Shown one piece after another: positions 4,303 to 58,428 of a DNA stretch of 64,000 bases. A model generated the notes under the pieces. It searched no databases. It worked only from the letters and a program-made list of their open reading frames with translations, and was not told where the DNA came from. Numbering within the stretch: the first letter of the stretch is position 1; each line of letters opens with the position of its first letter. Source of the DNA: Isoetes taiwanensis (Eukaryota; Streptophyta; Lycopodiopsida; Isoetales; Isoetaceae); assembly GCA_021234155.1 (NCBI GenBank), contig JAJEKV010000064.1:7442001-7506000 (forward strand), in the 5' to 3' direction. A program made the position numbers and the translations under genes.

Positions 4303-4895
4303 CGGGGTCTTTTTTGGCTCCCAAAATCGGGGTCTTCGGCGCCCGAAAATCGCTTAAGCGATTTTGGGGATGAAAATCGCTTAAGCGATTTTCAAGCCTG
4401 AAAAGCTTGAAAAGTTCTGTAGTGTGTACTGGATTCTCTGAAAATCTGCAAAAACATTGGAAAACAGGGATGATGTGAGCAAAACCGGACTCGATATGCA
4501 AAGAAAGAGCCGATTTGTATTGCTAGAGGGCCGATTAAGGACTGAGGAGGATCGATTTGCCTAGGAATCATAGAATCAGAGACTTTTAAACCGATTTTGA
4601 AGCTATCAGACTGGGCTCGGATTCAAAGGAAAACAGGCCGAAATTGCTTAAGAAGAGCCGAAATTGGATTGGGCATGGTCGATTTGGCTTGGAAACGCTC
4701 CAATTTGGAAAATCGATGCTAGAAACATGCTGTGCCGTTGCTTTTCTAGAGCCACCCTTTCTGTGTCGTTGCTGTTTTCGCCTGATGATCGCATTTTCCG
4801 GCAACTGTAAGCGATTTTCACTTTCCCCTTGAAAATCGCTTAAGCGATTTTGGGTCCGCGCGAGACCCCGATTTCGGGAGCCAAAAAAGGCACCG
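4303..4895. mobile_element. Non-autonomous MULE, 593 bp, with 9-bp TSD
   Basis: The terminal inverted repeats open with CGGGGTCTTTTTTGGCTCCC on the left. On the right, read inward on the other strand, they open with CGGTGCCTTTTTTGGCTCCC. Identical 9-bp duplications GTTTTTGTG flank the element at 4294-4302 and 4896-4904. Full copies of the palindrome AAAATCGCTTAAGCGATTTT lie at 4346-4365, 4373-4392 and 4832-4851, with a half copy near 4809. The outer 42 bases of the right end match the left end of the large MULE at 17,770 almost perfectly, so this is a deletion derivative of that family. The interior (about 4395-4805) has no transposase and may be filler or captured DNA. It would need a transposase supplied in trans. 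Confidence 0.92.
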
Positions 4896-16869: not shown

Positions 16870-17769
16870 CTGTATACAAAAAGAGCAATTTTGCCGCAGC
16901 AATTTGAGGCTCTCCACGTTGGCAACCAAAGTGGGATTTTTGTTTGACGTGGATGCCTTTTTGATTCCATTGATGGACACGAGAATTCAGGAAAATAAGT
17001 CCGTCATGCCACGTAGGCAAGCGATACCAACTAAGGCCCAAATTCCACTAGCGGCTGTTAGTGCCCGGCTTTTAGCAGCAAGCCAATCAAATCGAATGAT
17101 CGCAAACTTCCGAAGTTGCTCTCTGATTCCACAAGCAGTGGTAGTTTAGGTTTGGGGAGATGATGTGGAGCATTGGGGACAGGCTGAGGAAGCTAGAATT
17201 TGCCAGATAACTGTCAGAGGATGGACCCCGACAATTCGATGGGAAGAAATTACCGGGCCTAGATCTTTGACAGGCACTCTTCATCACCGATCGATTTGCT
17301 CCACGACCTCAATTCAGCCAGAGACAATTTTTGTAGTGGAATCGAGCAAGGGCAGTTCCATTTTTTTTAGGGCAGGCAGTTCCGGTGAAACAGATAACTG
17401 CCGTCTGCGGCAGTGGAATCTCACCCTAAATCAGAAGCTCTAAGGGTGATTTCCCATGAGATTGCCGACCTGAAAATAGATTGCCAGATCTAAAACCTGA
17501 ACATTCAGGCTTGAGAATTACTTTGGATTCAGGTCAAAAACCTGAATTCTTCAGGTTGAAGTGCCCACGGGAACCTGCATGCCAAGATCTGAACCTCAAG
17601 AAAACCTTGAGGTTGGAGGCCCATGGAAAAGCACCTTGTTGACTCTCAACCTGGCTTAAGAGTCAAACACAAGAAGCTTCGCTTTTCTCCTAAGAGTGAG
17701 TTCACTTTTGTTTGCCTCTACTAAGTTTGGAGCTAAGGTGTTTGCATCAAGCTAGGGTGTGTTCGCGTA
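16870..17769. other. Intergenic DNA with mini-hairpins, MULE target site
   Basis: No gene recognised. Between 17,490 and 17,620 several mini-hairpins follow each other: ATTCAGGT-caaaa-ACCTGAAT, and AACCTCAAG-aaaac-CTTGAGGTT. Bases 17,761-17,769 (GTTCGCGTA) are the left target duplication of the MULE. GTTTGCATCAAG occurs on both sides of the insertion, so the target already contained a short direct repeat. Confidence 0.5.
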
Positions 17770-17831
17770 CGGTGCCTTCTTTGGCTCCCGAAATCGGGGT
17801 CTCGCGCGGACGAAAATCGCTTAAGCGATTT
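17770..17831 (+). repeat. MULE left terminal inverted repeat
   Basis: It begins CGGTGCCTTCTTTGGCTCCC, then GAAATCGGGGTC, and runs into the first palindrome copy at 17,813. The matching right end is 23,529-23,590. Confidence 0.92.
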
Positions 17832-17973
17832 AGGGAAAATCGCTTAAGCGATTTTCGGGCACTTGCGAAAATCGCTTAAGCGATTTTTAAGCGATTTTCG
17901 TTTTCCGATACCGGAAACTCGGCTCACCTCCAGGTGGTTTTAAATAAAAATCGAAAATCGCTTAAGCGATTTT
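17813..17973. repeat. Subterminal palindrome array
   Basis: Four copies of AAAATCGCTTAAGCGATTTT, the first ending A instead of T, lie at 17,813-17,831, 17,836-17,855, 17,868-17,887 and 17,954-17,973. A half copy TTAAGCGATTTT directly follows the third. Each palindrome has two TCGCTTAAGCGA half sites and an AflII site at its centre. In MULEs and CACTA elements, subterminal repeat arrays commonly serve as transposase binding sites. Here the same motif also sits in promoters inside the element. Confidence 0.9.
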
Positions 17974-18041
17974 CGGCTGTCAGCGTCCGTCAGCGATCGA
18001 TCCGTCAGCGATCGCCTGCCCAGGTGAAAAAAAAAAAATCA

Positions 18042-18246
18042 GAAATCGCTTAAGCGATTTTCGGCCTTGTCAGCGCCGAAAGTAAGCGCCAAAAGTAAGC
18101 GCCGAAAGGAAAGTAAGAGAAAAACAATTTGAAAATCGCTTAAGCGATTTTCGCGTGTCAGCGGAGCCGACACCGGCGCCAGGGAAAATAAAAAAAAAAA
18201 AAAAAAATTTGAAAATCGCTTAAGCGATTTTCTATTCAATATAAAA
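18042..18246 (+). promoter_or_regulatory. Promoter cassette 1: palindromes plus TATA box
   Basis: Palindromes lie at about 18,042-18,061, 18,132-18,151 and 18,212-18,231, preceded by A tracts and ATTTG. The last ends 8 bp before TATAAAA (18,240-18,246), with ATTCAA in between. A CATATGCGT leader follows. It drives the first ORF (ATG 18,303). The block after 18,100, including GCCGAAAG and the A tract, recurs before the other two ORFs. Confidence 0.85.
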
Positions 18247-18302
18247 ACAGCTTGCCATATGCGTCAAAGCGCGCCTCTAATCTCCCTGCCTATCTTGTTG
18301 AA

Positions 18303-18734
18303 ATGGTCCGACAGTTAAAGACCGTGTGGGCACGATATGTCCCTTCTACCAGTAATCCGCCTCCTCCTCCTCCTCCGAGGGACATCATCAGCAATCCCCC
18401 TGCTCCTCCTCCAAGGGACAGCAACCCCCCTGCTTCTGCCGCTCCTTTCACCATCGTCGCAAGAATGAGTGAAAGGGAGCTTGTCACTGCTTTAACGTCG
18501 GGCGTTCCGTGCAGCGAACGACTGGTAGAATGGCTCAACGAGCCAAACAGAGATGAAACGATGTTAAATGTGCAGATAATGATGCAAATGGTTGCGTTAA
18601 ATTGTCACGTAATTTGCTTTTATGAATGGGAAAAAAGTAGTACACCCGATTTGACTATGGAAGCATATACATTGCCGAAAGTAAGAGGGAACAAAAAAAA
18701 CGAAGAAAAAAAAAAAAAATTGAAAATCGCTTAA
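18303..18734 (+). CDS. MULE ORF A, unknown protein, 143 aa
   Basis: The first ORF of the MULE. It begins at ATG 18,303, 57 bp after the TATA box of cassette 1; the open frame extends upstream without an in-frame ATG. An upstream ATG at 18,259 is in another frame and opens only a short reading frame. The protein starts MVRQLKTVWARYVPSTSN, followed by a proline-rich stretch (PPPPPPPRD, then PPAPPPRD, residues about 20-45). A hydrophobic, mixed region follows with MSERELVTALTSGVPC, SERLVEWLNEP and MVALNCHVICFYEWEK. A lysine-rich tail ends inside the next palindrome. I recognise no domain. Its position in a MULE beside a transposase suggests an accessory role (regulation, anti-silencing or transposition), which is inference only. 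It could also be a captured host fragment. Confidence 0.6.
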   Translation: MVRQLKTVWARYVPSTSNPPPPPPPRDIISNPPAPPPRDSNPPASAAPFTIVARMSERELVTALTSGVPCSERLVEWLNEPNRDETMLNVQIMMQMVALNCHVICFYEWEKSSTPDLTMEAYTLPKVRGNKKNEEKKKKLKIA

Positions 18735-18815
18735 GCGATTTTCAAGTGTCATGTCAACAATCACCTTCCAAAAAAAATTGAAAATCGCTCAAGCGATTTT
18801 CAATTCAATATAAAA
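18723..18815 (+). promoter_or_regulatory. Promoter cassette 2: palindromes plus TATA box
   Basis: Palindromes lie at 18,723-18,742 and 18,781-18,800; the second has one central change, CGCTCAAGCG. The second ends exactly 8 bp before TATAAAA (18,809-18,815), again with ATTCAA between. The leader that follows (GCATGCGTGTTCCGTGAAAGGAG, read in two pieces) and GTGCTTAAGCGAT match cassette 3. Downstream, 18,858-18,940 holds a 49-bp tandem duplication with GATAGGGTAAGA, a possible leader intron donor. It drives ORF B. Confidence 0.85.
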
Positions 18816-18971
18816 TAAGCATGCGTGTTCCGTGAAAGGAGTGCTTAAGCGATTCGCGATAGGGTAAGAATATAGGGTTTTTGCTCCTCGTTTTTGCAGC
18901 TTGTTTGATAGGGTAAGATTATAGGGTTTTTGCTCCTCGTGCTCTCTTACATTCATCTCAGAACACTCAAA

Positions 18972-19472
18972 ATGGCCGAAACAAGGCGCAGACGGGGACA
19001 CACCATCACCGAAATGCAGTCTCATATTAGTGGGCCAATCTTAGCCCATGCGAATCAGTTGCAGCTGGAGGTACAAAACGAGATGAGCCAGATCCGAACG
19101 AGAGAAGTTAGCGCCCAATTCACGAAGCTCCTCCAAGGCGATGGGTTCATAAGGAATGGCGACGAGGAACAACTCAGTAGGGGGGAGTTGGAGGAGTGCC
19201 TCATATCTTTGAAACGCCTTATTTACAGGGCAAAGGCACTGAAAAGGCTGCTGAAGATGGAGGAGGTTTGGATGCACAATACGTTCCGACCTCTGTTTAA
19301 GAAGCTTTACAAGAAGCAAAAAAGACAATGCGGGGCTATGGCAAACAAGCTCATCGTCAGCAGTGGTCATTCTATCAAGAAGCTGGATGATTGGGTGGAT
19401 CTGTACAGTCGAAGACATATTGATGAGTTCGATATGGAGGATCTCATCGAGGCTGAAGTGGGCATAGAGTGA
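18972..19472 (+). CDS. MULE ORF B, unknown basic helical protein, 166 aa
   Basis: An uninterrupted frame from ATG 18,972 to the stop at 19,472, preceded by AACACTCAAA. The N-terminus is strongly basic (MAETRRRRGHTITEMQ), as in nuclear localisation or nucleic acid binding segments. The rest looks alpha-helical and charged: LQLEVQNEMSQIRTREV, then RGELEECLISLKRLIYRAK and LFKKLYKKQKRQ (about residues 108-119). It ends acidic (DEFDMEDLIEAEVGIE). It has its own promoter cassette and lies between ORF A and the transposase gene on the same strand. No domain family is recognised. A DNA-binding protein acting on the palindrome is an attractive hypothesis, because the family shares this site at all three promoters, but nothing in the sequence proves it. 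Confidence 0.68.
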   Translation: MAETRRRRGHTITEMQSHISGPILAHANQLQLEVQNEMSQIRTREVSAQFTKLLQGDGFIRNGDEEQLSRGELEECLISLKRLIYRAKALKRLLKMEEVWMHNTFRPLFKKLYKKQKRQCGAMANKLIVSSGHSIKKLDDWVDLYSRRHIDEFDMEDLIEAEVGIE

Positions 19473-19708
19473 AGCTTTGGTCTTTTCTATTATACGTTGT
19501 CTATTATGTAGTATGTTTGTTTGAATTAGCCATGTCTTGTGAGAACTATGTATTTTCTTCATGTGAAAGAATACGAAACATTTGAGAGTAGCACCAAAAA
19601 TTGTTGACATCTATGTAATTTCGTGGTCAGTGCACATAAGTGTTTTCACTCAATTTCATTATAAAAGCATATGCAGTGCCGAAAGCAAGAAAAAAAAAAA
19701 AAAAATTG

Positions 19709-19780
19709 AAAATCGCTTAAGCGATTTTCGCGTGTCAAAAATTTGAAAATCGCTTAAGCGATTTTGCATTCAATATAAAA
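19709..19780 (+). promoter_or_regulatory. Promoter cassette 3: palindromes plus TATA box
   Basis: Palindromes lie at 19,709-19,728 and 19,746-19,765 behind an A tract and GCCGAAAGCAAG. The second ends exactly 8 bp before TATAAAA (19,774-19,780), with GCATTCAA between. The leader holds CATATGCGTGAAAGGAGCGC then TTAAGCGAT, and TGCAGCTTGTTTGATAG, which also occurs in the ORF B leader (near 18,896). It drives the transposase gene. Confidence 0.88.
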
Positions 19781-19889
19781 CAAGCCTTCGGGGCTACCAT
19801 ATGCGTGAAAGGAGCGCTTAAGCGATCCGCCTTCGTAGTTCCCGAGTTCTCCCCGGCATAGTGCAGCTTGTTTGATAGGCTTTGTTAGA

Positions 19890-22342
19890 ATGTCGGATTC
19901 AGATTATGAGGATGAGGGTTCCTTGAGCGAGCTTTCAGATGATGGCAATAGCGACTATTGGGAGGATTCATCTGACAATTCAGATGCCGATTGCTCTACA
20001 CCGTCCATTGCCACCAGTGCACCTCGTGGCCCCGGTGGTTCCAATGTTGTGCAGGAGGTGGTTCAGATGTATCCCGATCCGTGCGACTGGCTTAGGCAGC
20101 AACGGGCCCGAGGAGTTCGTGTGCATGGGTATGTGTTCTTGAAAGCAACATATGATCTTATGATTGTTTCCGTCAACGAAGGTAGACCCCCGTATTCGTG
20201 CGACATCAGGATCGCAGACCCAGATTTTCCTCCCCTTCCACAGAGACCAGACAGGCATGTTCTTTCCGAGTGGCATAGATATGAGGGACGGTGGGAGCAA
20301 TACCGTGAGGGGCTATACGTGGGAGTCGTCGGTCATGTTTCCTATTTGCATAGGGTGGGATCGCATCCACATAAGTGTGTGCCTTGGGTAGAGGATTGGA
20401 ACAATCTAGTGGCGCAGTGCCACATTGCCAATGGCCAGCACTTGTCGAAGACGCAGACCCTAGAAGAAATAAGATCACAGTGGGAGACAGGCATAGCGAG
20501 GCGCGGGATCCCTACTGAATACGTGACCCGATTACTGCGTGTGTGCGATTGCAAAGGTTCGCATGTACATGAAGGATAGTGACTTCCCTCAACATGAGAC
20601 TAGCTGCTTGTCGGCCCCGACCGACATCGAGTGGGAGAGGTGCAGGTGCGAGACCGTGTCCGTCTTGTGCACATCCACACGCGCATCAGGACCGGGGGTG
20701 GCGGTCGGCAGATGAGGGTGGACGATTTTGCCTGCCACCGGTGGAGGAATCCCAGGCGCAGGCCCACAACTTCTGGCAGCAGGTCAGGGGAGGAGTCACG
20801 ACGTGGTCGCGCGTATTTGCTTCGCGACAAAGCATCGGCCGAATGGTCATGCGGAGGACAGTGAGCGGACCTGGATATTTGCGCGGCCAGTGCATTCTGG
20901 GCACGATCCATACGAAGCGCCAGAGGTATGGTCTCTACCAGTTCACCCTAATCTGATAGAAAGAGCCGCGGCGATTAATGAGAAACGTGAAGCGGACAAA
21001 GGCCATGGTGGGACATGGCGAAGGCGATGGGTCCCATGCTCGGGGAGGAGACCACGGCGGCCGGAAGCGTCACATATCGGTTTGACATGAGCCGGGGAGG
21101 ATGTGTGGCGTCTACGCAACAAGTATTGAATGTTTGGTGGCGAATGTCATGTCTAATTAGGCTTGTAATTGTCTGCGCACTCACTTGCCTTGGCTCGAAC
21201 GCGACTATGTTTCAGGCGGTGGCGCAATGGCCGACTGGGACAGCCTTGAGGAGAACATAGAGGCCTGGGCACATGCAGGAAAGGTCCTCTACCACCAGCC
21301 ATTCGCGTCTCCACGGCTGCGGATCCGAACGCCCATGGATCCTAGTTACGCAAGATGCCGGTATCGCGAGGGCGGCGATCAAGATATCTGGAAAACTTCG
21401 GGGTGGGCCCTCGACTCGACATTCGGCACCAACATGTGGCGGATACCGCTCTACGCAGCCGTGGTTCCAGTTGCTTGCGGGGTTGGATATCCAGTCTTCT
21501 ACATGCTGTGTACACATAAGAAGGGGCGCGGCGGACAAAGAATGCATTACTTAAAAGCGCTTGCGGTGTTTGAACGGATGGGGCATGTAAGGCCAAGGTC
21601 CATCACCATTGACATGGACGGAGAGGAGAGAGTGGCCATAGAAGAGGCAGTTGCCAACGACCCATACTGTTTCAACGAGCACGGCGAGCAGGTAAAGAAC
21701 TTTGCTTGTCACTATTTGCGTTTTCCTAGATGTAATGCCCGTGCAGATCGCAGGCTGTGTCATATCTTGTTGGTTCCATTGCAAGCGAGCATGGCGTGAC
21801 AACCTCATGCCGAGGATACAAGACCCGCTCATACGCCAAGATGTCTGGCAAAGGCTATCTAATCTCATGTTGGAGCCCGACCTGGAGCGGTATGAGCACT
21901 TGGAAAATCACTTCTACAATGCCTATGGTAACAGTGCCGAGATCTTCGAGTAAGTGTCTTTGTCGAGCTCTTGATTAGAAATATCGTTTCGTAGTTGACG
22001 TGCAGCAATACACCTGGCATCCCCAGCTATCTTGCCCACAACTGGTTGTGGGGCGGCGTGTGGGAAGGGAAATGGCAGCGACACCAGAGGTTGTGGCCCC
22101 ATGGATACATGGACACTACCAACTACGTGGAGGCCCATTGGAGGGTGTTGAAGGTCCTCGTCAAAGCACGCCTGTCTCTGCCTGTCGCCGCAGTTACATT
22201 CGCTCTTGCCCGCTGCTCCGCTGTCCTCTGTCGTGCCAGTTCATTGAGGCGCTCCCTCTCCTCATCTGTGAGAGGGGATGGCTACGAAGGGTCATTCCTG
22301 GGACGACCACGTTCCCTCGATGGCCACCACATATCTCTGTGA
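19890..22342 (+). CDS. MULE transposase (DDE), spliced, 5' half uncertain
   Basis: ATG 19,890 opens an acidic N-terminus (MSDSDYEDEGSLSELSDD) in a frame running to 20,579. The central and C-terminal blocks are clear: WALDSTFGTN (first D near 21,413), ITIDMDGEERVAIEEA (second D near 21,611), and CWFHCKRAW. Finally GYMDTTNYVEAHWRVLK supplies the catalytic E near 22,130. Two short GT-AG introns restore the frame: 21,692-21,746 (55 bp) and 21,950-22,005 (56 bp). Between 20,580 and 21,185 the coding frame changes at least twice (recognisable pieces: ARPVHSGHDPYEAPEVW and STQQVLNVWW). Either more mini-introns are present or the gene has decayed there; I could not settle this. The enzyme would bind the element ends and cut and rejoin DNA. 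The C-terminal stop after GHHISL is tentative. Confidence 0.82.
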
Positions 22343-23528
22343 TATGCATTATGGTGCCCAATGGCACCGTCCCTCGTCGACACGCCCACGAGGCGATTCA
22401 CCCGCACCTTGTCCATTTGTATGGGGACACGGGTTGGGTCGTCGCGATACCGATAAGTGCCCAAACTATGTGTGCCACGGGCTGTTCGGGGGCCCAGACG
22501 CCTGACAGTCAGCCATATGCCTCGATATTCCCTATCAAACATACAAGTACAAATGAAAAAACTCTAGAGACATAAATACAAACTGCAAGTACAAATGAAA
22601 AACTCTAGAGACACAACTATGCAAGCTATCTAATGGGGGTCCGACGGTACTTACCAAAAAGTGATGTACCCAACCGCCCCATTTGTCGCATGGTTGGCGT
22701 AATCCGGGAGCCCACTCTCGTCCATCCCTATCGGGCGGCTCTCTCTAGCGTAAGATCTACGCCCCATCGGTCACTGTTGCCATTTTGTAATGCCACGCTT
22801 GGGGAATATGCCGAATGTGTTGTTAGTAAAGTAAATCTAATTATCATAAACAACATATGAAGGTAGGGTGTATAAAGAAGGAAGTCAGAATATGTTCAAC
22901 TTACTCAAGACCATGGTTATAATGGCAATGGTTCAAAAGGCCCATGGTTTTAGAATACAACAAAGGCATATCAAGACAAATCTAGGCATATCAAGACAAA
23001 ATCTGGAATACAAAATTTAGAATACAAAATCTAGAATACAAAATGCAGGCATATATTAAAGAATACAAAATCTAGGCACAAAATCTACAATACAAATACA
23101 AATGGGCACATATTAAATACCTTATGGAAGCGTGAAAATCGCTTTTAAGCACGAAACCGGAAAACCTCAAATATGAGCGATTCGAAACGAAAATCGCTTC
23201 AACACGAAACCTCAAATATGAGCGATTCTAAAACCTGAAAATTGCTTAAGCGATTTTGAAAATCGCTTAAGCGATTTTTTCGCCGCCGCGCTTGCTGGCC
23301 AGTCTTGCGGCAGTAAGCTGAAAATCGCTTAAAAGCGATTTTCGGCCGGGGCCTCGTCGCGGCCCGGGTCGTCTTGGCGAGCCCCACGGCGCTCGGGCCT
23401 CAGCAGGCGGGCGGGGCTCACAAGACGCCAAAATTTAAAATCGCAAGGGATTTCTTTTTTTTTTTTCCCCTTATGATTTTCGTGGCGCCCTTTTCAGGCG
23501 GGGAAAATAAAAGCGATTTTCCAGCCCA
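22343..23528. other. MULE 3' non-coding region
   Basis: No ORF with recognisable features. It contains a two-copy repeat with AGTACAAATGAAAAA and CTCTAGAGACA (22,548-22,615) and a GAATACAAAATCTAGG-type minisatellite (about 22,945-23,110). Further palindromes lie at 23,238-23,257 and 23,259-23,278, with degenerate ones near 23,131 and 23,321. One leads into the right terminal repeat at 23,528. Confidence 0.7.
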
Positions 23529-23590
23529 AAATCGCTTAAGCGATTTCTGGCCGCGGGGGACCCCGATTTGGGGAGCCAAAAAAGACCTCG
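23529..23590 (-). repeat. MULE right terminal inverted repeat
   Basis: Read on the minus strand it opens CGAGGTCTTTTTTGGCTCCC, then CAAATCGGGGTC and a palindrome copy. It pairs with 17,770-17,831. The TSD GTTCGCGTA follows at 23,591-23,599. Confidence 0.92.
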
Positions 23591-23599
23591 GTTCGCGTA

Positions 23600-40733: not shown

Positions 40734-41333
40734 TTGCTTAAAAAGGGACAAAAATTCCTATGGGGGAAGATGGCCTCTGAACGAATTAAGATCTTGCTCT
40801 CAAATGAACCAATTCTGAAAATTTTGGATTTAAATTTACCCTTTGAAGTTTATATTGATGCATGCAGACATGCTCTGGTAGCAGTCCTTATGCAACAAGG
40901 GCATGTGGCGGCTTATGAAAGCCGTAAATTAAATCCGATAGAAAGGAACTATGCCACTTACAAACAAGAGTTGTTGGCCATAGTTCATGCCTTAAAAACA
41001 TGGCGGCATTACTTGAGATCTGGGACCAATAAAGAACCACGCAAGTTTATAGTGTTTACGAATCGCAAGCCATTGAAATTTTTGCAAAGTCAAGCAGAAA
41101 CATGTCCCAGACAAGCACGCTGGTTGGATTTCTTATATGAATTTCATGTTGAAATTCATCATACCCCAGGAAAGGATAACCCAGTTGCAGATGTCCTTTC
41201 TCAAATAAAATATATCAACGGGATGAAGTCTTTAGAATGGGATAGCTTTCAACAAACAGGGATTCGTATAAAAAGGATCAAGATCCAACCAAAAGAGAGG
41301 GTGCTCTTTTGGACCCAAAATGATAATTTATAG
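40734..41333 (+). pseudogene. Gypsy element 1 RNase H
   Basis: A single open frame holds FEVYIDACRHALVAVLMQQG, YESRKLNPIERNYATYKQEL, LAIVHALKTWRHYL and HTPGKDNPVADVLSQI. This is the standard gypsy RNase H after the connection domain. The usual DAS reads DAC and the helix E (KQEL) is kept. It is cut off from RT and integrase by frameshifts. Confidence 0.88.
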
Positions 41334-41339
41334 TTTTAT

Positions 41340-42655
41340 GAGGGACGGATTTATGTACTCTTAGTAGATAATCTTAGGAAGGAGATTCTTTACGAGTTCC
41401 ACAACACCCCCCAAGTAGGGTACTGGGGGGAATGGAAGACATATGAATTGATTAAAAGACAATTCTTTTGGCCTGGTATAAAGCATGACATAAAATCTCA
41501 TGTGGCACAGTGCCAAGTGTGTCAAGCTGTTAAAACAGATGCCTGGATTACTACACCCGTTACCCATATCTTTTGAGAGGTGGGAATGCATAAGTATGGA
41601 CTTTATAGTCGCACTCCGACGAACAAGTCGACAACACACACAAATGTTTGTGATGGTCGGTGCTTAACAAAGTATACAAAGTTCCTAGCATTACAGGGTG
41701 ATGCTAAAGGACAAGATGTGGCAAGGGAGTGCCTACGGGTTGTGTACCCTACTTTTGGTCTGCAACAAAAAATTATAAATGATAGAGATTCTAAGTTCAC
41801 GGGACGCTTCTAGAAGGATTTCACGAAGGGACTGGGAGTGAGTCTCAATATGAGTAGTGGAAATCATCCTCAAATTGATGGACAAATAGAACGAATAAAC
41901 ATGATCCTGGAGGATATGTTAAGAAGTTTTGTGTTTGAGAAACAATCCAAGTGGGAAGAATACTTTCCCTATGTTGAATTCGCTTATAACAACGCGTATC
42001 ACACAAGTACCAAAATGAGTTCCTTATGGCAATGATGGGTAGGAACCCAAGATCCTATACTGGGACAAATCAAGCCTTAAACACTGATCTGGCTATCCAT
42101 ATATTGGAAGATATGCAAGCCATATTATACCAATGTAGGGCAAACTGGAAGAAGGCTCAAGATCGAGCCAGGATCAATGCCAATAAACATCATAGAGAGT
42201 TAATCTTCAAGGAAGGTAACTATGCATTTCTACAGATTGTTTACCCTTCGGCACTCAAGGTAGGGACCTTGAAACCATTTATGGAAAAGATTCCCAAATT
42301 GACGTCCCGATATGCTGGACCCTTCAAGGCGTTGAGAAGGATCAATGAGACAACATATGAGTTAGAGCTACCAGATGGAATAGGAGTGCACCTTGTGTTC
42401 CATGTGCGCCAACTCAAGAAAGCAATATTGTCCACGGACAACATTATAGCTCATGTGACAATACCCCTAGCCCTTATCTCAGAAGTAACTCTTGAGGCGA
42501 TTCTAGACACTCACATTCAAAAGCTGTGCACTCGAAATATTGCAGAGTACTTGATCTTATGGCGAGATCAACCACTCTCCGAGGCCACGTGGGAGAGTGA
42601 AGAGTATGTGCAGCAAAATTCTCACCTAACCCAAAAGTCGTGGAGGACACGGTAA
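41340..42655 (+). pseudogene. Gypsy element 1 integrase with chromodomain
   Basis: Integrase blocks occur in changing frames: FFWPGIKHDIKSHVAQCQVC (the HHCC zinc site has lost its second His), MDFIVALR, INDRDSKFTGRF, and HPQIDGQIERINMILEDML. A GPF-type segment follows (YAGPFKALRRINETTYELEL). The C-terminus EAILDTHIQKL, IAEYLILWRDQPLSEATWES (about 42,490-42,600) is a chromodomain, which in chromoviruses guides insertion to heterochromatin. Stops near 41,335, 41,575 and 42,035 break the frame. Confidence 0.9.
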
Positions 42656-49672: not shown

Positions 49673-51141
49673 TGTGATGTTCCATGTAAGTATACGGTAT
49701 ACGTATACCGTACCTGACACGTCACCAAGGTATTGGGGACCATTGGGAATTCACTTAAAAAGGATTATTGACATTTATGTTAATGGTATTAGTTAGCTAT
49801 GTAGGCCAGTAGGAAGGTGCCACTTGGCCTCACTCGATTGGCCAAGGGCAGGTTGCCATCTTTGGGGTGGCAAATTGAGCTCCCCATCCCAGTTCCACCC
49901 AAATTCGAGTTTGGGAAGAGCAGAGGGAGGAGGAAGCTATCACAACCCAACATCTGACCTTTTCCATGGATGTTCTTCGAGATAACGGGTCCAGTCAGGA
50001 TACAGGTCAGTTTCTAGGTAGTTGTGTGCTATTCTAACCCTTGTTTGAGGTATATGGATGATTAGATTCTATGTTATGATCTAGTTATGATGATTATGGA
50101 TACCAGATTCTGTTCTCTCTTTCCGTTCCTCCGTGATGTATGGGTTTAGAGGGGGGTAGAGACCTGAAAGCTATTTAGATTTAGTGATGTTCCTAGCTAG
50201 AACCCCTTAAATCCCAGTAAATACGGCCTTTGCACAAGAGCCCACCTGGTTGTGGATGCTATGATGTGATTCAGCACCAGACAACGAGTATGATGGTGAA
50301 TCGAGGGTGGGATCTTGCCTAGCGAGGCTACAGGACTCCTACAGTGTGCTAGGCTTATAGCCGGTCACGGAGAGGGCCAGGTATGAGTCTGACACTCCCT
50401 GGGTCGCAGGTGTCGAGCCAATATTCTTGGGCACCCTAGGCTCAAACGGGCTGGTGAGCCGGCCTTTAGATTTAGGGGAGTAAGTCGGGTACGGACGCGG
50501 GGGTCTCTGAGGGGGCACGCGTTCTCTAGCACACCCAGGGATCCGTCATACTCGGGGAGGGGACGCCTCTCCGACCTGCCTCATCGAACTGGGGAGATGC
50601 AACCCGGAGTAGTTCCATAGGGTGATTCCATGGAATTGCGTCTCCGGAAGGCTACAATCATGCCATAGCATGTATATGCAAAGTGTGCACAGGCGGGGCG
50701 GATGGAGTGGACTACCCTAGCCATTGTTCTATGCCAGCCAACGCCATTGTTATGATTTTGTCTGATGTTTCTCTGGAGGCCCTGACTGTCGGTTGATTCC
50801 CATGAGTCTGAGCCGGGGTAGAGCCCATGTTCATGATGCATTTCCTTGATATGTTAGCGTTTCATTGCATTCGTATCGATGGTGATGGGCCACCCTTCGT
50901 GGTGGTATATTATTTATTGTGTTGTTGCCAGGTGCTAACCTTGTATGTACGCTTCCGCTATTAGGATTCCCATCGAAGGCGTGGGACGAATGACACCTCC
51001 GTGTCCTTCACCCAGACACTTGCCATCACACGTGGTCTGAGTCAGACGGAGGGCCTTTCTATGGTGGTATTATCGTCGTAGAAGAGGGGATTTCCCATAT
51101 GTATACGATGGGAGCATCATATAGGTTGGGGGAGCGTCACA
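49673..51141 (+). repeat. 5' LTR of the young element
   Basis: It starts TGTGATGTTCCATGTAAG with the self-complementary CGGTATACGTATACCG shortly inside, and ends GGGAGCGTCACA. It lacks a few short insertions present in the 3' LTR (near 57,030 and 57,375). Confidence 0.92.
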
Positions 51142-54628: not shown

Positions 54629-56467
54629 TTGGTCGTCCGTGCCTTGCGCATTTGGTGCCATTACCTTCTTGGACGGCGATTCCAACTCGATACGGATCAC
54701 CAAAGTCTACAGTATATCTTCACTCAGACTAACCTCAATCTTCGTCAACGGAGATGGATAGAATTTTTGGAGGAATATGACTTTGAGATTCTGTATAAAC
54801 CTGGCAAACATAATGTTGTTGCAGATGCCTTATCTCGGCATCCGTTGACCACACGTACCCATTGCAGTGCTATTTCCACTCTTGCAAGTGAATTTGGTAA
54901 GACTATTGAACAGTCTCATCCAACGGATCCTGAATTTAGAGAAGTATGGAACAGTAAGGAGGCCAGGACAGATAAGGAGGGGGATACATTTAAGCATTAC
55001 AAGAAGGACGGTAATCTTTTATATTACCGAGATAAGTTATGTGTACCCGACTCATCAGGAGTTAGACGGCTAATTCTCCATGACACGCATAACAGCCCTA
55101 TTGCGGGTCATGCCAGATTCATGAAAACATATTTCAAGATAAGGTCCAGTTACTTTTGGCCTAATATGAAGAAACATATTGCACGCTATATTAAACAATG
55201 CCAGCTTTGCCAACAGACAAAGGCAGAGCAACTCCGAACACCAGGTACACTAGAGCCTTTAGACATCTCCAATGCCAAATGGGAAGTCATTACCATGGAC
55301 TTCATTGTGGGTCTTCCACGCACACTTTGGGGGTTCGACGCCTTGATGGTGGTAGTTGATAAGCTTTCGAAAATGGCACATTTCTTGCCATGTCGCACCA
55401 CCGACACTGCCTTGGATATAGCACTTCTATTTTCCAAGGAAATCTTTCGGCTTCATGGCATGCCCCGAACCATTATTTCAGATTGCGACCCCAAATTTGT
55501 TAGTGCTTTTTGGAAGGACTTCTTCAGTACTATACAAACCAAGCTTGCCATGAGTACGGCTTATCACCCTCAGACGGATGGGCAGTCGGAACGCACCAAT
55601 AGAATTATCGAGGATATGCTATGAAATTATGTCTGGAATAAGCAATCTCAATGGGCAGATTACATTCATTTGGTGGAATTCGCCTACAATAGTACCAAAC
55701 AGGAGTCCTTGAGGATGTCTCCCTTTATGATCACTTATGGTTATCAGTGTCTTACTCCAGATACGTGGCATAACCCAGTTTCCAAAGTGGCAGTTTCACA
55801 GCAATTGCTTATGGATATGCGAGCTTCAGTTGAGGAAGTACGAGCATATCTCTTGGCTGCACGAAGCCGTCAAAAGAGTTTAGCAGACAGACACCGTATC
55901 CCACGCGAGTTTCAGGTTGGTGAATCGGTGTGGTTGAAAATTAAGGTTAAGCAGGCCAAGCTTAAAATTGGAAATTGTAAGAAGCTTGCACCACGATGGG
56001 CAGGGCCATTTCAAATCACGGAACGCATAGGTCCTCAAGCCTATAGATTAAATCTACCTGCTCATCTAAAGGTACACAAGGTTTTCCATGTAAGCCTTTT
56101 GAAGAAGCATACTCCAGATCCTCATGAGATTCTTGATACGCCAACTCTTCTGGAGATGACGAACGAGCAATTGGAGATTGTTCCAAAGGCTCTCCTTGAT
56201 AGGGCATACAAGCAAACCAGAAGAACTCAGATCTTACAATATTTGGTTAAGTGGAAACACTTATCCACGGAGGATGCTACCTGGGTCCTTAAACAAGACC
56301 TTGACAAGACTTACCCTGACTTCATGCGGCAATGTCAGGGGCGGACCATCCACGATGATATCAACTCCGACCCCAATGGTATGTCATTGTGTAGTAGATC
56401 CGACAGGGATCATGCAGGGGGGAATTGGGGTAGATGCATCCTAGGATGGGAGGGGAATTGCATTTAG
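54629..56467 (+). pseudogene. Truncated gypsy pol: RNase H end, integrase, chromodomain
   Basis: The frame starts within RNase H (VRALRIWCHYLLGRRFQLDT, HTPGK-type YKPGKHNVVADALSRH), so the catalytic D and E of RNase H are absent. Integrase is well kept. The HHCC zinc site (H-x3-H, CQLCQQTK) is intact, as are MDFIVGLPRTLWGFDALMVV, SDCDPKFVSAFW and HPQTDGQSERTNRIIEDML. A single TGA at 55,621-55,623 breaks it where a CGA or AGA (Arg) codon is expected. After it come WAGPFQITERIGPQAYRLNL and VHKVFHVSLLKKH. The chromodomain (RRTQILQYLVKWKHLSTEDA, TW) lies near 56,215-56,290. Apart from the nonsense codon this module is open, much better preserved than element 1. Confidence 0.92.
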
Positions 56468-56926: not shown

Positions 56927-58428
56927 TGTGACGTTCCATGTAAGTATACGGTATACGTATACCGTACCTGACACGTCACCAAGGTATTGGGGACCATTGG
57001 GAATTCACTTAAAAAGGGTTATTGACATTAAACTAACATAACTACACTAACTAATGGTATTAGTTAGCTATGTAGGCCAGTAGGAAGGTGCCACTTGGCC
57101 TCACTCGATTGGCCAAGGGCAGGTTGCCATCTTTGGGGTGGCAAATTGAGCTCGCCATCCCAGTTCCACCCAAATTCGAGTTTGGGAAGAGCAGAGGGAG
57201 GAGGAAGCTATCACAACCCAACACGTGACCTTTTCCATGGATGTTCTTCGAGATAACGGGTCCAGTCAGGATACAGGTCAGTTTCTAGGTAGTTGTGTGC
57301 TATTCTAACCCTTGTTTGAGGTATATGGATGATTAGATTCTATGTTATGATCTAGTTATGATGATTATGGATGTTGTACCAGATTCTGTTCTCTCTTTCC
57401 ATTCCTCCGTGATGTATGGGTTTAGAGGGGGGGTAGAGACCTGAAAGCTATTTAGATTTAGTGATGTTCCTAGCTAGAATCCCTTAAATCCCAGTAAATG
57501 CGGCTTGTGCACAAGAGCCCACTTGGCTGTGGATGCTATGATGTGATTCAGCACCAGAGAACGAGTATGATGGTGAATCGGGGGTGGGGTCTTGCCTAGC
57601 GCGGCTACAGGACTCCTACATTGTGCTAGGCTTATAGCCGGTCACGGAGAGGGCCGGGTATGGGTCTGACACTCCCTGGGTCGCATGTGTCAAGCCAATA
57701 TTCTTGGGTGCCCTGGGCTCGAATTCGAACGGGCTGGTGAGCCGGCCTTTAGATTTAGGGGAGTAAGTCGGGTACGGACGCGGGGGTCTCTGAGGGGGCA
57801 CGCATTCTCTAGCACATCCAGGGATCCCTCATACTCGGGGAGGGGACGCCTCTCCGACCTGATCGGACCGGGGAGATGCAACCCGGAGTAGTTCTATAGG
57901 GTGATTCCATGGAATTGCGTCTCCGGAAGGCTACAATCATGCCATAGCATGTTCCAGCCTATCTGCAAAGTGTGCACAGGAGGGGCTGATGGAGTGGACT
58001 ACCCTAGCCATTGTTCTATGCCAGCCAACGCCATTGTTATGATTCTGTCTGATGTTTCTCTGGAGGCCCTGACTGTCGGTTGATTCCCATGAGTCTGAGC
58101 CAGGGTAGAGCCCATGTTCATGATGCAGTTCCTTGATATGTTAGTGTTTCATTGCATTCGTATCGATGGTGATGGGCCACCCTTCGTGGTGGTATATTAT
58201 TTATTGTGTTGTTGCCAGGTGCTAACCTTGTATGTACGCTTCCGCTATTAGGATTCCCATCGAAGGCGTGGGACGAATGACACCTCCGTGTCCTTCACCC
58301 GGACACTTGCCATCACAAGTGGTCCAAGTCAGACGGAGGGCCTTTCTATGGTGGTATTGTCGCTGTAGAAGAGGGGATTTTTCGTATGTATACGATGGGA
58401 GCATCATATAGGTCCGGGGAGCGTCACA
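56927..58428 (+). repeat. 3' LTR of the young element
   Basis: It starts TGTGACGTTCCATG and ends GGGAGCGTCACA, followed by TSD TTAGG. Compared with the 5' LTR it has short extra segments (for example near 57,030 and 57,950) and scattered C/T changes. Confidence 0.92.

Follow-up and report, generated by a model that had tools for sequence, protein, structure and literature searches.

In Arabidopsis, the protein VANC21 binds a 9-base motif that is densely arrayed in the non-coding parts of its Mutator-like element (MULE), and the motifs of VANC6 differ from it (PMC5735166). The VANDAL21-type MULE carries three genes (PMC10398659), and a survey of MULEs describes extra open reading frames (ORFs) in some groups, including the DNA-binding mutB (PMC6446971). 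TNPA of Spm/En binds subterminal repeats and regulates its own element (PMC2613891), the terminal inverted repeats (TIRs) of maize MuDR contain both a transposase site and promoters (PMC3440606, PMC3310237), and in Muta1, a MULE of Aedes aegypti, the tip is palindromic and 12-bp repeats lie subterminally (PMC5225508). Described here is a MULE-like transposon of 5,821 bp from Isoetes taiwanensis, located at positions 17,770-23,590 of a 64,000-nucleotide stretch of contig JAJEKV010000064.1 (hereafter the window). It is bounded by a perfect 9-bp target duplication, GTTCGCGTA (17,761-17,769 and 23,591-23,599), and carries a 20-bp palindrome, AAAATCGCTTAAGCGATTTT, exactly 8 bp upstream of TATAAAA at three genes. 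The palindrome is probably the recognition site of an element-encoded protein, used at the element ends and re-used at the promoters.

Spm/En transcripts arise by alternative splicing, whereas the window element has a TATA box at each of its three genes; the Spm/En repeat also differs from the window palindrome. Common to Spm/En and the proposal made here is a single protein that reads subterminal repeats needed for transposition and regulates the activity of the element (PMC2613891). Like VANDAL21 and VANDAL6, the window element is a three-gene MULE with a family-specific short motif in its non-coding regions, including those upstream of genes, and in both cases the motifs differ between related families and the arrays are partly tandem. 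This shared trait, a repeated non-coding motif differing between families, is a resemblance and not a sign of membership. The VANC motifs (YAGTATTAY and AGTTGTCC/AC) are, as printed, short, of one orientation, and non-palindromic, whereas the window site is palindromic; the available portion of that report mentions no fixed distance to a TATA box and contains neither "palindrom" nor "TATA" (PMC5735166). The TIRs of VANDAL21 are degenerate (PMC10398659), whereas the window element has a 32-bp TIR with the motif at a fixed distance from it; the VANDAL clade also includes members with TIRs (PMC6446971), so that a clear TIR speaks neither for nor against VANDAL membership. As in the arrangement proposed for the window element, a transposase-binding site and gene promoters occur together in the terminal region of MuDR, but there the promoters lie in two long TIRs and serve two convergent genes, and a repeated palindrome preceding three tandem genes is not named in the available portions of the MuDR reports. 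In Muta1, by contrast, the palindrome is at the very tip and the 12-bp repeats form a tandem series inside the TIR; the accessible part of its description mentions the transposase gene alone and no promoter use of the repeats (PMC5225508).

By analogy, the window element looks to work like the VANC, TNPA, MuDR, and Muta1 systems. What appears to be new is a symmetric site whose distance is fixed both to the tip and to three TATA boxes, and of which a sister lineage has a symmetric variant. The first-pass annotation of this DNA knew of no described MULE with such a layout. For the exact layout this holds in the open-licence literature searched, in which no MULE with a palindromic repeat or subterminal motif together with a TATA box was found and the string TCGCTTAAGCGA matched a single report, on E. 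coli; an element protein bound to motif arrays in the non-coding regions is, on the other hand, already described for VANDAL (PMC5735166).

Three promoter modules and the element ends

The promoter palindromes, read directly, lie at 18,212-18,231, 18,781-18,800, and 19,746-19,765, and the TATAAAA boxes begin at 18,240, 18,809, and 19,774, all as the first-pass annotation had given them. The resulting modules occupy 18,212-18,246, 18,781-18,815, and 19,746-19,780 on the forward strand, and their 8-bp spacers are CTATTCAA, CAATTCAA, and GCATTCAA, respectively. One of the two central bases of the second palindrome is C in place of T. Every cassette also has an upstream palindrome, with cores starting at 18,133, 18,724, and 19,710; that of cassette 2 (18,724-18,741) contains the read-through stop of ORF A discussed below, and that of cassette 3 extends from 19,710 to 19,727. 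A-rich stretches also precede the palindromes of each cassette, in keeping with the A tract ascribed to it earlier, although just five A's precede the third promoter palindrome. A bare core, CGCTTAAGCG, is found immediately downstream of the third TATA box (19,815-19,824), and a related sequence, GCTTAAGCGAT, lies downstream of the second.

A search of the window allowing up to three mismatches yielded 17 palindromes versus 0.05 expected, none of them with two or three mismatches. Indeed, the 17 sites show two differences in 306 core positions, and their flanks are mostly unlike. Perfect palindromes measure 18-26 nucleotides, with A tracts beside some of them. In the 64 kb, every occurrence of the words AAATCGC (20/20) and AAGCGATTT (21/21) falls inside two related elements, as do 21 of the 24 occurrences of the shorter word GCGATTT. 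The second of these elements is a non-autonomous short relative of 593 bp (4,303-4,895) with a TIR as in the full element, a 9-bp duplication, GTTTTTGTG, on either side, and three palindromes near its ends (4,347, 4,374, and 4,833), none of which is at a TATA box; it has no promoter module. An unrelated 20-bp palindrome, TACGGTATACGTATACCGTA, occurs in identical form at 49,693-49,712 and 56,947-56,966.

Of the 14 sites of the full element, seven are in the left 461 bp, cassettes 2 and 3 have two apiece, and three are near the right end. The left subterminal array (17,814-18,230) begins with the terminal palindrome (17,814-17,831), which has its core, CGCTTAAGCG, beginning at base 49 counted from the tip, and the last member of the array is the promoter-1 site. 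The right subterminal region (23,239-23,546) contains palindromes at 23,239, 23,260, and 23,529 together with half-sites, and no TATAAAA is nearby. The 32-bp TIR, CGGTGCC...GGGGTC on the left, occupies 17,770-17,801 (forward) and 23,559-23,590 (reverse). The window contains four copies of its inner 25 nucleotides, one per end of the two elements and with at most one mismatch, and the outer bases vary more. The palindrome spacings (23, 32, 86, 88, 90, 80, 58, and 37) look irregular by eye, with no helical phasing apparent. There are four TATAAAA sequences in the element, three at the 8-bp position and a fourth, at 19,660, that is not. When 14 palindromes and four TATA boxes were placed at random, three at one gap were obtained in 0 of 200,000 trials, under a null that ignores cassette duplication.

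Cassettes 2 and 3 align over 160 columns at 73% (E = 3e-26), and the homology takes in the A tract and the leader as well as both palindromes and the TATA box. The three cassettes are diverged paralogous duplicates, so one promoter was copied and its spacing in part inherited. When all three are aligned, the palindromes are identical in 42 of 43 columns and the spacer plus TATA box in 13 of 15, with no gaps, whereas the region just downstream of the modules is identical in 20 of 36 columns with a further 17 gapped. Outside the palindromes and the spacer plus TATA box, 109 of 205 cassette columns are gapped, and the start-to-start distance between the two palindromes of a cassette is 80, 58, or 37. 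Within the ORF B leader (18,858-18,940), a 34-bp unit is duplicated at a spacing of 49 bp, the copies being 97% alike.

Placement in the genome and a sister subfamily

The genome searches covered the 1.66-Gb assembly that contains the window. With up to two mismatches, the palindrome is present at 1,319 places, versus 30 for the reversed control. A TIR followed by an exact palindrome within 30 bp defines 148 ends genome-wide (control 0), and the palindrome does mark element ends, a role that the first-pass annotation had raised as a possibility for its regulator. Among the 100 of these 148 ends listed, 81 have a total length of 49 (a 12-bp linker between TIR and palindrome), 11 have a length of 50, and eight differ. 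Of the 12 AAAATCGC-arm ends read, from eight of nine loci, 10 have the first base of the core at position 49 counted from the tip; in the short element it is at positions 49 and 50. The element end, ~12 bp inside the TIR, is the main fixed position of the palindrome, and promoters are a minority. The palindrome had 0 matches in viral and prokaryote sequence collections. Chance or low complexity as its origin is ruled out by the window counts, the clustering in elements, the placement trials, and the reversed control.

An exact core followed by TATAAA within 30 bp is found 44 times in the genome (control 0). The spacing is 8 bp in 38 of these pairs, three of which are the window's own, 9 bp in four, and 17 and 19 bp in one each. 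A looser pattern, a half-palindrome before a TATA box, gave 125 matches versus 50 for the control; among the 100 listed, the gap is 8 bp in 46, and those with other spacings look for the most part unrelated to the element. One half-site-TATAAAA match recurs six times, every ~3.4 kb, at G000:C1037:7562080-7579104, apparently within a tandem repeat unconnected with the element.

The genome contains at least 153 matches to ORF A; the 20 that scored highest apart from the window copy were extracted with their flanks. With a pattern that allows some degraded palindromes, the family loci read contain 22 pairs, of which 18 are at 8 bp, two at 9, one at 17, and one at 19, the 17-bp case being the upstream palindrome of cassette 3. 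Where both parts were found, the spacing is 8 bp in 5/5 copies of module 2 and 6/6 copies of module 3. It is likewise 8 bp in loci L055 and L057, in which the palindrome centre is changed. The central C of cassette 2 is inherited, being present in five of eight aligned copies and in 11 of the 13 genome matches having the module-2 spacer (window included in both counts). The spacing claimed for the window is therefore common in genome copies (38/44), with the qualifications that promoter 1 varies and that common descent accounts for part of the agreement.

A second version of the palindrome characterizes a sister subfamily, L042-L053. In nine of these 12 loci, there are sites in which the shared centre is flanked by GGGTT on one or both arms, as in CTGGGTTCGCTTAAGCGAACCCAG; no GGGTT-arm sites were seen in L046, L047, and L052. 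The outer arms are changed symmetrically (GGGTTCGC...GCGAACCC) and the symmetry is retained, as expected if a dimeric binder had changed its specificity. In all six ends readable by similarity, from six of the 12 loci and including the near-identical copies L042 and L043, the core (CGCTTGAGCG or CGCTTGGGCG) is again at base 49. The end position appears to be common to both subfamilies, and the promoter placement belongs, as far as seen, to the window's subfamily. In L043, L051, and L052, telomere-like CCCTAA arrays lie directly upstream of a TATA-like box, less than ~200 bases before ORF A.

Classification and genes of the element

Target-site duplications in the MULE range of 8-11 bp were observed repeatedly: 9 bp and perfect in the full element, the short element, and L040, which is flanked on both sides by ATAAGGGTA, and matching in eight of nine bases in L038 and L054. 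These duplications, the TIRs, and the weak domain evidence described below combine to indicate that the element is MULE-like, in agreement with the first-pass annotation. CACTA/Spm elements have CACTA termini, a 3-bp target duplication, and a different transposase. An ATA target duplication is named in PMC2613891. The termini of the full element, CGGTGCC/CGAGGTC, and the 9-bp duplication led to rejection of CACTA/Spm membership. The observed/expected CpG ratio is 1.03 in the element, and in 186 overlapping segments of the same size outside it the median is 0.53 (range 0.37-0.87). This retention of CpG fits youth or low methylation and does not separate the two; with respect to the VANC system, it is compatible with removal of methylation by an element protein. 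Elsewhere in the window, at 40,770-42,652 and 55,121-56,464, are the remains of a probable Ty3/Gypsy-type retrotransposon, with pieces of reverse-transcriptase RNase H, integrase, and chromodomain.

ORF A (18,303-18,734, forward strand) encodes 143 residues in the window copy and 110-113 residues in six translated relatives. Near 18,609 (18,603-18,620), the window copy lacks 26 bp found in 10/10 of the relatives checked, and GT is repeated at the edges of the loss. This loss takes away the usual stop codon, and the residues from ~105 onward are read-through; ORF A as a 143-residue protein was accordingly rejected. For its first 104 residues, the ratio of nonsynonymous to synonymous substitution rates (dN/dS) is 0.19-0.36 versus L042-L053, with the best-scoring matches (20 of at least 153) as the source of loci, a choice that lowers dN; the other loci give 0.14 to 0.91. 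ORF B (18,972-19,472, forward strand) encodes 166 residues. It is predicted with low confidence to be all-helical (single-sequence model, mean pLDDT 59), and the corresponding model of ORF A has a mean pLDDT of 43. The best hit of a fold search with ORF B was a nucleoid-occlusion factor with DNA (E = 1.2), which is not meaningful at such an E-value and model quality. In shuffles of both strands, the length of ORF A was reached in 7 of 1,000 and that of ORF B in 1 of 1,000, so that ORF B is unlikely to be a chance frame. Antisense to ORF B is an open frame of 189 codons (19,041-19,610, reverse strand), possibly a shadow of ORF B, whose length was reached in 0 of 1,000 shuffles.

The transposase gene has a first coding part at 19,890-20,579 (forward strand) and a MULE-like catalytic part at 21,227-22,338 (forward strand), with predicted exons at 21,227-21,691, 21,747-21,949, and 22,006-~22,338 that form a single frame once joined; exons were placed in 21,227-22,338 only, and 20,580-21,226 was left undivided. 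Its best Pfam matches are PF10551 and PF21056, the MULE and ZSWIM RNaseH-like families, at 19.4 and 21.8 bits, below the curated cut-off; the L042 transposase reaches 23.9 bits for PF10551, for which the cut-off is 27.6. By eye, the window transposase has what we take to be DDE-type motifs. Pooled over the closer copies in nucleotide alignment, the ratio of nonsynonymous to synonymous differences (pN/pS) is 0.50 for ORF A, 0.70 for ORF B, and 0.58 and 0.46 for the two transposase parts, with single values up to 2.65. Relative to the coding parts of the window, L035-L058 have many frameshifting indels (0 to 22 per gene part), reflecting either decay or an unpolished long-read assembly. Owing to these indels, the dN/dS ratios for ORF B and the transposase were considered unreliable and set aside.

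Proposed role of the palindrome

In the proposed mechanism, a MULE-family protein would bind the palindrome, most likely as a symmetric dimer. The basal place of the site would be the element end, with one copy having its core 49 bases from the tip and more copies subterminally; there the bound protein would mark, pair, or protect the termini together with the transposase. In the window's subfamily, a block consisting of the site and a core promoter would have been duplicated before each of the three genes with the 8-bp distance to the TATA box kept, and the same protein could also switch, or keep open, all three promoters. Activation or anti-silencing seems more likely than repression because the site does not overlap the TATA box but precedes it. 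We infer protein binding, dimerization, co-regulation, and its sign from the sequence; the binder may be the product of ORF A, ORF B, or the transposase gene. A fuller version of the proposal is put forward tentatively: a self-contained regulon in which one palindrome and one element-encoded dimer would serve the ends and three promoters, and in which site and reader would have changed together in the sister lineage with the core and the tip distance kept.

Several observations weigh against the proposal that ends and promoters share one functional site. Eleven of the 14 sites in the full element are away from any TATA box, and for this reason end recognition is the better-supported primary role, compared with promoter control. 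The right-end sites include half-sites and a site with two extra central bases (23,320), and the base-49 rule is broken by the right ends of L038 (no core) and L054 (base 43). The 9- and 19-bp spacings in the family loci read are all at promoter 1, where the distance is 8, 9, or 19 bp, and L035 has no readable module at that promoter. In the second subfamily, no core was found within 1,200 bases before gene A at any of the 12 loci. The contrast in conservation between the spacer plus TATA box and its flanks is not significant (Fisher p = 0.053 and 0.14), and among copies some of the promoter-2 5' leader shows as much conservation as the module, recent common ancestry contributing. Finally, no DNA-binding domain was recognized and no Pfam match obtained in ORF A or ORF B, for which the structure models are poor. 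Constraint on the palindrome-TATA spacing is, on balance, likely but not proven. The fixed spacing had been read as the sign of an operator or activator element; it does recur in the genome, but its weight is reduced by the paralogy of the cassettes. A promoter-only operator was rejected in view of the sites elsewhere in the element and at its ends.

Part of this evidence can also be accommodated if the palindrome functions at the ends only, as a transposase or synapsis site, and the promoter copies are a duplicated subterminal block with an inherited, non-functional 8-bp spacing. The paralogy of the cassettes well beyond the module is consistent with this, as are the lack of TATAAAA at 11/14 full-element and 3/3 short-element sites, the 148 ends versus 44 promoter pairs, the location of promoter 1 with its variable spacing inside the left subterminal array, and the second subfamily with no core before gene A. 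Such an explanation is nevertheless unlikely, given that the 8-bp spacing holds in 38/44 genome pairs and in L055 and L057 despite their changed palindrome centres, that the intervals next to the 8-bp spacer have gained and lost bases, and that the site is kept at each of three genes, with 8 bp in every readable copy of modules 2 (5/5) and 3 (6/6).

A host transcription or chromatin factor, exploited by the element with no protein of its own involved, is an improbable binder of the site, although ORF A and ORF B have no recognized DNA-binding domain. The confinement of AAATCGC (20/20) and AAGCGATTT (21/21) to the two elements of the window and the fixed placement at element tips argue otherwise, and a co-evolving element protein better fits arms that differ between subfamilies in one genome. 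Perfect palindromes of 18-26 nucleotides, some beside A tracts, might also suggest that the site needs no bound protein and acts through structure, as a hairpin, a cruciform, or a fold-back source of small RNA. This is very improbable, since the sequence itself and not symmetry alone is held (two changes in 306 core positions at 17 window sites) and the distances to the tip and the TATA box are largely fixed.

If recognition of the palindrome by an element-encoded protein is correct, a eukaryotic transposon would have a single short site connecting its transposition ends with the coordinated control of its genes, in a measurable geometry of 49 bases to the tip and 8 bp to the TATA box. The presence of two versions of the palindrome in the same genome provides a ready test of specificity, and the symmetric change in the sister lineage would separate the control and mobility of the two families. 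The element would then stand beside VANC and TNPA as a differently built case of how transposons recognize and un-silence only their own family.

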